Below are positions 2,981 to 5,030 of a stretch of DNA of 5,128 nt, piece after piece. Every line of letters starts with the position of its first letter. The stretch's first letter is position 1. This DNA is from Oscillospiraceae bacterium. Lineage in GTDB: Bacteria; Bacillota_A; Clostridia; Oscillospirales; CAG-272. The DNA lies in the NCBI GenBank assembly GCA_015064665.1, contig SVRU01000108.1, positions 1-5,128 on the forward strand. The letters are read 5' to 3'. Position numbers and translations under genes: made by a program. The notes under the pieces were generated by a model. It was not told the origin of the DNA. It saw only the letters and a list, made by a program, of their open reading frames with translations, and ran no database searches.

Positions 2981-3140
2981 CGGTAGGGGAGGATATTATA
3001 CTCCCGAAAAATCAAACAAAAAAGCGGGAGCACCAAGGCGCTCCCCTACCGATTTCACACGGCGAATGCGAACCTGATTCTGCACACGAGTACCCCAGCC
3101 AACGCAAAAAGGACACCCGAGGTGTCCTTTGCGGTGTGTT
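2981..3140 (-). repeat. Composite palindromic repeat, copy A
   Basis: It begins with an 11-bp perfect inverted repeat, CGGTAGGGGAG (2981-2991) and CTCCCCTACCG (3041-3051), with inner GGGAG/CTCCC hairpins and an A-rich linker that starts CCCGAAAAATC (3003-3013). From 3043 to 3140 it matches copy B (3612-3710) except for one base, and it ends with the hairpin at 3104-3132. It lies directly downstream of the 78-residue gene. The strand is set by the neighbouring gene and the T-run after the hairpin. Confidence 0.85.
3104..3132 (-). terminator. Rho-independent-like terminator of the 78-residue gene
   Basis: On the minus strand GGACACC pairs with GGTGTCC (7 bp, 3111-3127, loop of 3); A-T pairs extend the base and a TTTTT run follows. 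It starts about 35 bases after the stop at 3167. The opposite strand has only TTT after the stem, so minus-strand termination is favoured. Confidence 0.7.
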
Positions 3141-3144
3141 TTGT

Positions 3145-3162
3145 GACCGTTTTAGATGACAT
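3145..3162 (-). repeat. Short repeat flanking hairpin A
   Basis: GACCG-N3-TAGATGACAT here recurs at 5013-5030 beside hairpin C, 15 of 18 bases identical, at nearly the same distance from the hairpin. Copy B lacks it. It shows that copies A and C share sequence beyond the hairpin on the gene side. Confidence 0.6.
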
Positions 3163-3166
3163 CTTA

Positions 3167-3403
3167 TTATTCATTAACATAATAGGTATTCTCGTATATT
3201 TCAATTCCCAAAAGGTTGATTGCCCAACCTTTCATAGTTTGATCGTCGAAATACAGCATATTAAAAATGTATATTTCGTACGTTGGTATAATAGGGCGTA
3301 AATATATAGTTCCACCGTCCTTTAATGTATGCGGAATCGGTACGATTAAAAGAAGAATGACAACTACTATACAAACAATAAAAATTATTTTTGTTTTCTT
3401 CAT
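3167..3403 (-). CDS. Small single-pass membrane protein of unknown function
   Basis: A 78-residue protein. Residues 1-4 are basic and 5-23 form one strongly hydrophobic helix, acting as membrane anchor or uncleaved signal; no lipobox Cys follows. The next stretch reads VPIPHTLKDGGTIYLRP. A PIP-x-x-LKDGGT-x-Y pattern just after an N-terminal helix recurs, as I remember, in many short uncharacterised proteins of gut Firmicutes, so the outer part is probably a small extracytoplasmic domain. The C-terminal half has several Tyr, Ile and Leu and ends YYVNE. Start at ATG 3403 is supported by AAAGGCGGT at 3410-3418 and an extended -10 promoter at 3428-3456. The frame closes with two consecutive TAA codons, and a terminator-like hairpin follows at 3132. 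It appears monocistronic. No function is assigned. Confidence 0.8.
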   Translation of the reverse strand: MKKTKIIFIVCIVVVILLLIVPIPHTLKDGGTIYLRPIIPTYEIYIFNMLYFDDQTMKGWAINLLGIEIYENTYYVNE

Positions 3404-3409
3404 AACGCC

Positions 3410-3418
3410 ACCGCCTTT
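3410..3418 (-). promoter_or_regulatory. Variant Shine-Dalgarno AAAGGCGGT before the 78-residue gene
   Basis: This site lies 6 bases before ATG 3403, the same sequence and spacing as at 2791-2799 and 4679-4687. It fixes the start of the small membrane protein. Confidence 0.7.
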
Positions 3419-3427
3419 CTGTGTTTA

Positions 3428-3456
3428 ATTATAGCATATCTTTGCGTAAATGTAAA
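3428..3456 (-). promoter_or_regulatory. Extended -10 promoter of the 78-residue gene
   Basis: On the minus strand: -35 TTTACA (3451-3456, five of six consensus), 17-base spacer, TGC then -10 TATAAT (3428-3433). The leader that follows, AAACACAGAAAGGCGGT, is shared with the promoter of the small ORF at 2784. Confidence 0.8.
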
Positions 3457-3468
3457 GTATCTTTTGTA

Positions 3469-3488
3469 GGGGCGACCATTGGTCGTCC
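3469..3488. repeat. GTAGGGGCG-type hairpin beside promoter
   Basis: GGGCGACC (3470-3477) pairs with GGTCGTCC (3481-3488) around an ATT loop, with one wobble pair; the left arm is preceded by GTAG. It is the same family of palindrome as at 2904-2926 but single. It lies just upstream of the -35 of the 78-residue gene. Confidence 0.65.
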
Positions 3489-3494
3489 GCTTAT

Positions 3495-3710
3495 GGCACT
3501 AGGGTAACTCCGCTTCGCTCCGTGATTCGCACGCTCTCCTCCTGACGGTAGGGGTCGGCGCCTCGACGACCCGAAAAATCCACCGAGGAAACGAGCTGTC
3601 GTGGGCGCCAGCCCCTACCGATTTCACACGGCGAATGCGAACCTGATTCTGCACACGAGTACCCCAGCCAACGCAAAAAGGACACCCGAAGGTGTCCTTT
3701 GCGGTGTGTT
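3495..3710 (-). repeat. Composite palindromic repeat, copy B, with terminal inverted repeats
   Basis: Left end GGCACTAGGGTAACTC (3495-3510) is shared with copy C. GAGTACCCC (3657-3665) is the near inverted match of AGGGTAACTC, so these look like terminal inverted repeats. Inside, CGGTAGGGG-TC-GGCGCC (3546-3562) and GGCGCC-AG-CCCCTACCG (3604-3620) form arms with 15 of 17 bases matching. CCCGAAAAATC (3570-3580) is shared with copy A, and 3612-3710 is 98 of 99 identical to copy A. No gene lies here; frames across it are by-products of the palindromes. Confidence 0.8.
3673..3702 (-). terminator. Rho-independent-like terminator of the PH-like membrane gene
   Basis: The same GGACACC/GGTGTCC stem as at 3104-3132 (here 3680-3697), with a 4-base loop, one A longer, and a TTTTT run on the minus strand. 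It begins 28 bases after the stop at 3730. Confidence 0.7.
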
Positions 3711-3729
3711 ATAAGCTTGATAGATTACT

Positions 3730-4672
3730 TTAAAACAATGCTATTAAAAGGAAAATAACTGTGGGCAATAACGCAATAAATATCGTAAGAGGAAGCTCTC
3801 CTTTTGCCCATCGTACAGTTTGATTGGGAAGGTGCTTTTTTAACTTTCTTAATCCGTACAGTGTAAAGTTTGAAACTTCAACAACATATTCTCTTTTCCT
3901 TGCAGGTGCCACGGTAATGGTTATGTATGCTGCACGGAAATTAAATTTTGAAAAATGTGTTGTGTTGTATTCTACTGATTTTATGTCTTCCCACGGAATA
4001 AAAGTATTATCCAAATACAAGCCTTTTTGTTCAACGACTGCTATTGTCTTTCCAAATATAAATTTACTGCAAACAGACAAAAGAAACAAAGGCAATATAA
4101 ATGACGCAATCGTCGGCAAAGCCTCGGCGGTAGTATTCCAAAGAAGACGCCACGAATTCCAAACTGAAACGTTTTGCTTTTCGCATTCCAAAATGAATAT
4201 CATGGGAATAATAGGAAGAAGCGTAGCAAGAAATACATATAAAATAAAATTAAAGTACTGCCTTCTGATTTTTGTTCCGTTAATTTGATTTAAATCGGGA
4301 ACATTTTTGTTTGGGGTTTTGCTTTTAAGATATGATAAAAATTTGGGTAAATTTTCTTTTTGCGAGTCGATAGCCAAAACTTTAGGAAAAGCGGTTATTC
4401 GACAAGGCGCCCCCTCGTTAAAATTAATATCTATTACGTGTTCATTCAAAAAAAGATTTTTCTTGATTTGTACCGAATTTATATCCAACGGAACACGAAT
4501 CGTATCTGTAACGGTTTTTCCTGATACCAATGCAATTAAAAGAACCTTTTCTGTAAATCCAAAATATCCATAGTATTGCCTTTCGCCTTGCACCAACAAA
4601 CCATTTTGATTTGTTTATTTTAATGAGTAATTTTCGTTGTATATCTTGTTTTGTGATCACTTGCTTTTTCAC
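3730..4672 (-). pseudogene. Membrane protein with two probable PH-like domains, frameshifted near its N-terminus
   Basis: Two frames make one protein. From GTG 4672 a frame reads VKKQVITKQDIQRKLLIKIN for 22 residues. The rest (289 residues from a TTG at 4599 to the stop at 3730) lies one base over. Dropping one A from the AAAA run (plus-strand TTTT 4604-4607) joins them into 313 residues reading KINKSNGLLVQGE at the seam. Positions below count from 4599. Residues 1-95 are beta-rich and end in an amphipathic helix (LPKFLSYLKS), PH-like. Hydrophobic helices lie at 118-137 and 161-183. A second beta-rich part contains GLYLDNTFIPWEDIKSVEY (193-211), typical of bacterial PH-like domains. A third helix (269-288) ends the protein. 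GTG is favoured by AAAGGCGGT 6 bases upstream; ATG 4696 would place that site inside the gene. The gene is visibly more AT-rich than the operon to the left. It could be a real frameshift or a sequence error. Confidence 0.75.
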
Positions 4673-4678
4673 CGTCAC

Positions 4679-4687
4679 ACCGCCTTT
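4679..4687 (-). promoter_or_regulatory. Variant Shine-Dalgarno AAAGGCGGT before GTG 4672
   Basis: The same nine bases and 6-base spacing as before the starts at 2784 and 3403. It decides for GTG 4672 rather than ATG 4696 as the start of the PH-like gene. Confidence 0.65.
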
Positions 4688-4778
4688 CGTTATCATTTTC
4701 GTCTGCTATCAAGCCAACTGTAATAATTCTCTAATAGCTTTTTGCAAGAAAAGTTTTTGAAAATTAATTGTTGAGATT

Positions 4779-4807
4779 ATTATAACATAAATTCAGAAAA
4801 ATGTAAA
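4779..4807 (-). promoter_or_regulatory. Extended -10 SigA promoter of the PH-like membrane gene
   Basis: On the minus strand: -35 TTTACA (4802-4807), 17-base spacer, TGT then -10 TATAAT (4779-4784). It leaves a leader of about 100 bases before GTG 4672, in which no clear riboswitch or terminator is visible. Confidence 0.8.
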
Positions 4808-4822
4808 GGAAAATTTGTGTTC

Positions 4823-4970
4823 GGCACTAGGGTACTCGCCTTTGGCGAGGATTCTTCGCCGAGCCTCCCGTGAGCGAGCTCCCGTCGGCTTTCGGCTCGA
4901 ATGCGAACCTAATTCCGCTAACACCTTCGGTGTGCGGAGCTACGCTCGGCACACCAGTGCCCCAGCCAAC
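4823..4970 (-). repeat. Composite palindromic repeat, copy C (divergent)
   Basis: Left end GGCACTAGGGTACTC (4823-4837) matches copy B apart from one base. GGCACT (4823-4828) and AGTGCC (4956-4961) are inverted. Hairpins: CTCGCC-TTT-GGCGAG (4835-4849), CGAGCC/GGCTCG (4860-4899), and GGTGTGC/GCACACC (4929-4955) with inner GAGC-TAC-GCTC. CGAATGCGAACCTAATTC is shared with copies A and B apart from one base, and CCCCAGCCAACGC is shared exactly. The third hairpin looks inserted relative to A and B. No gene here. Confidence 0.75.
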
Positions 4971-5000
4971 GCAAAAAGGACGCCGATTGGCGTCCTTTGC
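4971..5000 (-). terminator. Terminator-like hairpin, copy C, with compensatory change
   Basis: GGACGCC (4978-4984) pairs with GGCGTCC (4989-4995) around GATT, with TTTTT following on the minus strand. Compared with hairpins A and B, one A-T pair has become G-C on both arms, which supports the stem as a selected structure. It would end transcription of the gene whose possible tail stops at 5058. Confidence 0.7.
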
Positions 5001-5012
5001 GTTGTGATTAAC

Positions 5013-5030
5013 GACCGAAATAGATGACAT
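5013..5030 (-). repeat. Short repeat flanking hairpin C
   Basis: GACCG-N3-TAGATGACAT, partner of the copy at 3145-3162. It lies between the possible gene end at 5058 and hairpin C. Confidence 0.6.

Follow-up and report, generated by a model that had tools for sequence, protein, structure and literature searches.

Repeats Copied from tRNA 3' Ends in a Family of Clostridia, and Their Possible Role as Recombination Sites

Introduction

A contig of an Oscillospiraceae bacterium (SVRU01000108.1), analyzed here over a stretch of 5,128 nucleotides (nt) that we call the window, carries three copies of a non-coding repeat, A (3043-3140), B (3612-3710), and C (about 4897-5005), each with a terminator-like hairpin. 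The sequence past the T-run of this hairpin is conserved more strongly than a terminator would need, which raises the question of what the repeat is and where its tail comes from. The original prediction, made from the sequence alone, pointed this out and suggested an uncharacterised terminator-linked repeat or RNA family. Here we report that the tail is the inverted 3' end of tRNA-Gln(CTG) and that the repeat belongs to a family of units which lie behind many tRNA genes and follow the sequence of the neighboring tRNA, and we consider whether these units may be sites of DNA recombination. Coordinates are positions in the window, and the minus strand is the direction of all likely genes in it.

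Results

The Conserved Tail Is a tRNA 3' End

Copies A and B match exactly over 78 nt and differ only by one inserted base in the hairpin loop, and copy C shares the named conserved blocks with both. The terminator hairpins read GGACACC-CGA-GGTGTCC in A, GGACACC-CGAA-GGTGTCC in B, and GGACGCC-GATT-GGCGTCC in C, so that an A-T pair in the stem of A and B is a G-C pair in C, with both arms changed, while the loop measures 3, 4, and 4 bases. All three copies have one common orientation, and minus-strand stops at 3167 and 3730 precede copies A and B. In these respects the original prediction was borne out; the region preceding C lies beyond the contig end.

Read along the minus strand, the terminator hairpin of one copy is followed by GCGTTGGCTGGGG and then by a further conserved block that ends in TACCCTAGTGCC. 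The conserved GCGTTGGCTGGGG is the inverted 3' end of tRNA-Gln(CTG) with four bases of its trailer, and is not an accessory of the terminator. An exact 20-base piece of the repeat recurred in 17 stretches of a collection of 84,980 genomes, of which two (L005 and L018) look like unrelated or chance matches, and the repeat itself is therefore not due to chance; one match on a viral contig also looks unrelated. The remaining 15 stretches come from 14 metagenome-assembled genomes (MAGs) of Oscillospiraceae/Clostridia, and a ruminant (sheep, deer, yak) is named in eight of the 15 titles. In nine of these 14 genomes the hairpin is joined to the 3' end of tRNA-Gln(CTG), where it occupies the place expected for the tRNA's own terminator, and CCCCAGCCAACGC..hairpin..GCGTTGGCTGGGG is thus a single long palindrome. 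The other side of the hairpin is the tRNA-Gln(CTG) 3' end itself in L002, L007, L008, L011, L013, L014, and L017. With copy C as the query, each of the 14 genomes gave 1 to 7 matches, mostly on the tRNA-Gln contig and with the palindrome sometimes counted twice. The window's own 5,128 bases do not include a tRNA-Gln.

The unit is a partial duplicate of the tRNA 3' end, from the T-loop to CCA, together with an inverted copy of the same end, and the 7-base T-loop of the duplicate is replaced by a two-hairpin insert of about 75 bases. The terminator, by its sequence a G+C-rich hairpin with a T-run as in intrinsic terminators, is replaceable among units, which carry GCCACCC, GGGCACGCC, or CCGACC types.

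Units Lie behind Many tRNAs and Match Their Own tRNA

We searched for further copies with R1, a covariance model of the fold that has copy C in its building set. Under strict filters, 143 of the 395 genomes searched in one Clostridia family had an R1 match to the fold, and none of 390 genomes from the rest of the class did (391 were examined, G012 itself among them); fuller scoring of four genomes gave 10, 10, 4, and 6 copies. We then drew 60 loci from among the higher-ranked R1 matches, a non-random sample in which most known tRNA-Gln loci were skipped and which held 85 matches. The many further copies agree with the original prediction. Of the 85, 66 share the strand of a tRNA and lie downstream of it at a distance of at most 600 nt, behind 14 isoacceptors; 16 come from loci that lack a tRNA, several of these at contig ends, and three are placed otherwise. 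Cases behind tRNA-Thr and tRNA-Tyr were found outside this sample. The distance from the tRNA to its nearest copy is mostly 66-111 nt (exceptions 167, 224, and 827), and tandem units are spaced by 129-201 nt in 21 of 22 neighboring pairs, the last pair by 348.

For 65 of the 66 tRNA-linked copies (one could not be parsed), we compared the unit with its own tRNA. The T-stem copy scored 4.63/6 against its own tRNA and 2.86 against other isoacceptors, with a maximum of 3.17 in 1000 draws; the 3' strand scored 6.86/9 versus 4.68 for other kinds, and the inverted arm 8.02/12 versus 6.87. The own tRNA was best or tied for 57 of the 65 T-stems, 46 of the 3' strands, and 29 of the inverted arms, making the inverted arm the least preserved part. 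The closing stem of the unit follows the neighboring tRNA's own T-stem. Among 46 nearest copies, a set from which two lying more than 200 nt off were excluded, five match the tRNA 3' end at all 16 positions from T-stem to CCA and 18 keep at least 8 nt of it (control fraction 0.0002), while it has decayed in the rest; the clearest repeat stands behind tRNA-Pro(CGG) in L223. Two tails are simpler: L287 has the inverted arm without the fold, and L290, behind tRNA-Arg(acg), has a T-arm copy without insert, its T-loop unexpanded (CGGGGTTCGAATCCCATC), and is a possible intermediate. A terminator-like hairpin stands before the fold in the loci inspected, often with a T-run of 4-6.

An Rfam scan of five related loci returned only tRNAs and a piece of rRNA at gathering score, the rest at E ≤ 0.5 being weak unrelated names, and a scan of the window gave 0 matches at gathering score. 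Two further elements were noted. A second, different structured insert (..TTGATAGCTTTGG..) stands in tandem between inverted arm and tRNA 3' copy at tRNA-Arg(acg) of G007 and G012 (L303:2930-3150 and L305:1-270), and a palindromic-hairpin stretch of 28-29 bp (L249:1199-1228) recurs nearly exactly at more than 10 places in G006 and at several in G012 and G395.

The Fold Is Supported by Covariation

The core of the unit can form a three-way junction, in which the tRNA T-stem (TTAGG..CCTAG) forms the closing stem around an unpaired TTCGC and two arms, ATTC..GAAT with an inner GGAGCTNGCTC hairpin and TTCGCC..GGCGAA. In an alignment of 30 sequences, 94.6% of cells pair compared with 86.0% in shuffles, 12 of 18 pairs are changed on both sides compared with 5.3, and the covariation score is 0.302 compared with 0.149, a value reached by 0 of 500 shuffles; when the structure was slid along the alignment, pairing was at most 47.3%. 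The counted structure came out of folds of individual sequences together with a scan of columns in the same set, and is thus partly derived from the sequences on which it was tested, with slid and shuffled versions as controls. Among 85 distinct model-aligned matches, in an alignment that leans towards R1, pairing was 96.7% versus 82.4% in shuffles, with 14 pairs versus 9.0 and a score of 0.425 versus 0.155. The three-way junction was the lowest-energy fold in only 16 of the 30 cores, single-sequence stability was unexceptional (z of -0.7 to -2.1 for three elements), and the RNAalifold consensus on a MAFFT alignment was poor. Covariation in the family exceeds that of shuffled controls and covers all four helices. 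Changes in the stems thus keep the pairing, as had been predicted, and the original suggestion holds in part: the repeat family is uncharacterised, linked to terminators, and covarying, but its conserved tail is not a free-standing RNA motif, the units being tRNA-derived and tRNA-linked.

Layout of the Window

The features of the window, in the order in which they are met on the minus strand, are as follows.

5013-5030, minus: joint core ATGTCATCTATTTCGGTC (pattern GTCATCTANNNNGGTC), end of a preceding unit
4978-4995, minus: terminator hairpin of copy C, GGACGCC-GATT-GGCGTCC, with a minus-strand T-run; in relatives the same hairpin is directly 3' of tRNA-Gln
4917-4972, minus: inverted tRNA-Gln 3' end (GCGTTGGCTGGGGCACT) and variable hairpin of copy C
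4823-4916, minus: T-arm copy of tRNA-Gln(CTG) in copy C with expanded T-loop and three-way junction (R1 99.4 bits, copy C being in the building set; fold -36.0 kcal/mol; covariation)
4823-4916, minus: parts of this junction, closing stem TTAGG/CCTAG, unpaired TTCGC, arm ATTC..GAAT, and arm CTCGCC..GGCGAG
4779-4807, minus: promoter-like TTTACA-17-TATAAT following copy C, a module that the G012 array also has
3730-4599, minus: putative cassette gene, an open reading frame (ORF) of 289 aa for a membrane protein with a weak DUF986 match
3612-3710, minus: copy B, with 5' part of the T-arm, inverted tRNA-Gln end, and terminator GGACACC-CGAA-GGTGTCC (3680-3697)
3495-3650, minus: fold of copy B, interrupted by a palindrome (R1 38.3 bits)
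3546-3620, no strand: CGGTAGGGG..CCCCTACCG palindrome within copy B, a separate repeat (inverted repeat I10)
3428-3456, minus: promoter-like TTTACA-17-TATAAT behind copy B
3167-3403, minus: putative cassette gene, an ORF for a 78-aa membrane protein
3145-3162, minus: joint core ATGTCATCTAAAACGGTC, adjoining the stop of the 78-aa gene
3043-3140, minus: copy A, with truncated T-arm copy, inverted tRNA-Gln end, and terminator (3111-3127); no R1 match
2981-3051, no strand: CGGTAGGGG..CCCCTACCG palindrome that truncates copy A, a separate repeat

The full conserved block is kept in copy C (4823-5005), which reaches to 4823, as B does to 3495. In A and B the block is disrupted by the palindrome, so that C is complete, B interrupted, and A truncated; R1 matched C and B on the minus strand of the window, and gave no match to A. 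Directly behind copies C and B stand the sigma-70-like promoters, each followed by a AAAGGCGG ribosome site and one gene, and the fold is thereby placed between the terminator and the next promoter.

The interrupting palindromes belong to a MITE-like GTAGGGG..CCCCTAC type that occurs in the window at 2903-2952, 2981-3051, 3466-3490, and 3546-3620, two of them inside copies A and B, and similar ones stand in loci of G002, G008, and G395. Elsewhere in the window, three copies of a 24-bp tandem repeat (2056-2127) encode the charged tail of a 218-aa ORF.

Gene Content Varies between Units at tRNA-Gln

At tRNA-Gln(CTG) loci of several genomes the order, in the direction of the tRNA, is unit, gene, joint core, terminator, unit, gene. 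Across 27 genomes, the joint core GTCATCTANNNNGGTC had 13 exact matches in nine, 9 of the 13 on tRNA-Gln(CTG) contigs, and the reversed pattern had 1; many joints carry mismatched or other cores, and the core is also found inverted just behind tRNA-Gln in G082 and G083. The distance from the boundary gene ORF159 to tRNA-Gln is 0.40 kb in G006, 2.89 kb in G395, and 4.82 kb in G012, with different gene content. At tRNA-Gln(TTG), a single 179-aa gene precedes the boundary gene in G006, and G395 has the same gene start, three further ORFs, and a second unit. A 171-aa cassette gene is common to G002, G014, and G057, and adjoins tRNA-Gln(CTG) in the last.

The 289-aa gene of the window, one of 73 proteins found including itself, has relatives of 92% identity in the tRNA-Gln array of G395 and 91% in G007. 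It is without the N-terminus of relatives of 316-324 aa, and its 5' end is different or out of frame. When the relatives in G395 and G007 are compared, the stop codon abuts the joint core (with one mismatch in G395), and upstream similarity stops at the ribosome site. The 78-aa protein had no match in Pfam, PADLOC, PHROGs, or NCBIfam, and cassette proteins scanned against defence and phage families gave no meaningful match; orphan immunity proteins were considered as cassette products and dropped, as no family supports them. Among 49 putative cassette ORFs, some of them doubtful, 31 have a membrane-like segment. Of 52 sampled units, seven of them in loci that lack a tRNA, 21 have promoter-like sites within 400 nt behind them on their own strand and 9 on the opposite one.

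Some further observations concern these arrays. A small conserved ORF, MPNLKPYYQVKLTLLRCKLSF, occurs in three of them (L182:9578-9829, L052:17033-17254, and L055:17959-18171), and the leader of the 289-aa gene in the window contains a remnant of it (KLLENYYSWLDSRRK), at about 4690-4740 on the minus strand. In the G001 array (L049:9779-11984, plus strand), an Mpi-like serine invertase, an HNH protein, and a 268-aa protein stand between two units, opposite to the cassettes. The tRNA-Arg(acg) locus, short in G006 and about 5 kb long in G003, was not counted as a further variable array, since its large genes are common to G003, G395, and G012 and a deletion in G006 is equally likely; a block of this tRNA and ORF209/210 appears inverted between G007 and G152 (L303 versus L304).

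Comparison with Known Systems

The Escherichia coli rtT repeats (tyrT/tyrV, RF00391) have been known as a one-locus curiosity. Like the present units, they begin with the tRNA 3' end from the T-loop and are repeated behind the tRNA. Behind E. coli tyrV there are three further copies of the final 19 nt of tRNA-Tyr, without mismatch and spaced by 178 bp; by eye, AAGGTTCG with a long insert comes before every one of them, and the place of the inverted arm is taken by GGGGAAGGAT, which is complementary to a portion of the tRNA end. An automatic search of this locus for the inverted last 14 nt of tRNA-Tyr found none. In contrast to rtT, the Clostridia units occur at 14 or more tRNAs with copies matched to each, have a terminator-like hairpin before the fold and a different insert, and are associated with gene cassettes. 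The RtT model matched the E. coli locus four times, as a positive control, and had no match in 32 genomes of the Clostridia family or, at E ≤ 0.5, in five loci. The four best matches of R1 on the E. coli locus fell on the four RtT units, at 10.1, 7.7, 7.1, and 6.4 bits (E 0.07-0.6), which is too weak to claim rtT as a homologue by descent. Since the unit layout is common but the RtT cut-off is not reached, the two share a plan and not membership of the model.

In integron gene-cassette arrays, co-oriented single genes, most of them private, stand in a row and are separated by structured sites. Co-oriented single genes separated by folded sites were likewise found at tRNA-Gln(CTG) and tRNA-Gln(TTG), and are not general at other tRNAs. 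Unlike integrons, these arrays have no detected IntI, are anchored at a tRNA, and have cassettes that bring promoters and terminators; by eye, the GTTGGCT of the units does not fit the attC box GTTRRRY.

Discussion

From the architecture of the units, their match to the neighboring tRNA, the direct repeats, the family-wide spread, the covariation, and the variable gene content at tRNA-Gln, we infer a mechanism that we put forward tentatively, at somewhat less than even probability: the repeats may be rtT-like "tRNA-tail units" that are scars and sites of T-arm recombination at the DNA level and, at tRNA-Gln, the joints of cassette arrays. The units would both arise and act as DNA. The stem of the T-arm with its 7-bp loop resembles the core of a tyrosine-recombinase site, and the folded copy might persist because it is required by a recombinase or for the folding of single-stranded DNA. 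Genes at tRNA-Gln, each with a promoter of its own and closed by a terminator, would be gained and lost singly between units, and the window would be a piece of such an array with copies A to C as its joints. Two papers (PMC8371274, PMC9897764) describe the T-arm, with its dyad symmetry, as a target of integrases, and the usual scar as an intact tRNA together with a directly repeated 3' part, a picture that fits the boundaries of the units. They differ from such tRNA-integrated islands (attL/attR scars) in holding about 75 nt in the T-loop and an inverted arm, in measuring about 130-240 nt without a gene, and in having no integrase found beside them.

Several results weigh against recombination at the T-arm. 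Integration scars do not account for an inverted arm and a T-stem copy that both follow each tRNA, which needs copying in place; ends that match 14 tRNAs are not expected of a fixed mobile element, so that copies must form or be corrected where they stand. Conserved paired stems fit an RNA equally well. The tyrosine recombinases (PF00589) of 14 genomes all lie on other contigs and none on array contigs, a result limited by the fragmented MAGs; 12 of them form one close, Xer-like family with a 13th as a distant relative, and the one scanned was nearest to XerC (219.7 bits, below the model cut-off of 335). No integron integrase (TIGR02249) exceeded the cut-off in 23 genomes, nor in 14 control genomes, so this search had no positive control. 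Two integrase-like frames do share a contig with a unit but are remote from it, the one on G145:C8 lying some 33 kb from tRNA-Gln and the one on G082:C41 some 5 kb from tRNA-Cys on its 5' side, and the serine invertase (resolvase) of the G001 array is a single case. As for the arrays, the exact joint core was absent from 18 of the 27 genomes and no recognisable one stands beside the window's 289-aa gene, and only two pairs among the 49 putative cassette ORFs are shared between genomes. The gene next to the 52 sampled units is convergent in 29 cases and co-oriented in 14, and in the other 9 there is either no such gene or only a distant one; cassette arrays are thus a subset of units. Because no recombinase lies near and the tRNA-following copies are unexplained, we rate DNA recombination no higher than this, and RNA function and passive duplication keep a real, if smaller, share.

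Action of the repeat as an RNA is possible, although we think it unlikely to be the explanation. The tRNA transcript would read through the first terminator into an rtT-like trailer, whose T-arm mimic might be bound by tRNA-processing or -modifying enzymes, or pair with its own inverted arm, and so tune maturation of the tRNA 3' end. Covariation in all four helices, the near-fixed distance of units on the strand of the tRNA, the annotation of E. coli rttR as a small RNA at the equivalent position, and an inverted arm whose sequence could pair with the tRNA 3' end are consistent with this. The same covariation would, however, be expected if selection acted on single-stranded DNA that folds, and the fold lies after a terminator-like hairpin, often with a T-run of 4-6, and in the window before the next promoter.

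Passive DNA processes also strike us as improbable, if worth serious consideration. Fold-back template switching could extend palindromic terminators into the tRNA, slippage could make the tandems, homologous recombination could spread and homogenise the copies, and the arrays would be ordinary inter-repeat recombination. This would account for tRNA-specific copies without an enzyme, in keeping with the failure to find a recombinase, and the simpler tails of L287 and L290 and the regular tandem spacing, with its one exception at 348 nt, agree with it. On the other hand, 14 isoacceptors across many genomes are followed by one and the same insert fold, with compensatory changes that drift would break, and the five nearest copies with the full tRNA 3' end to CCA are what integration would leave. 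That the repeats are plain bidirectional terminators, repeated by happenstance, is very improbable: every copy has a good hairpin with a T-run, but the conserved fold lies outside this hairpin, whose sequence is itself replaceable, and the family spread, tRNA linkage, and own-tRNA matching largely refute it.

A bolder form of the recombination hypothesis, which we regard as distinctly doubtful, is a cassette-capturing system separate from integrons that uses tRNA-copied, expanded T-arms as recombination sites and several tRNA loci as anchors for arrays whose single genes are exchangeable, a process of which the rtT repeats of E. coli would be a relic. The open-licence literature held no description of such a family in Clostridia, which is weak evidence of absence, and a structured-RNA survey of the human microbiome (PMC8040213) may hold a model of the element in its tables.

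With the same plan present in 36% of the sampled family genomes, at many tRNAs and matched to each, the origin of rtT-type repeats becomes testable. The family also connects the tails of tRNAs with the turnover of genes in gut bacteria. Recombination at the sites would make them a new way of building gene-cassette arrays; if the units act as RNA, they would form an RNA family that copies its own tRNA.

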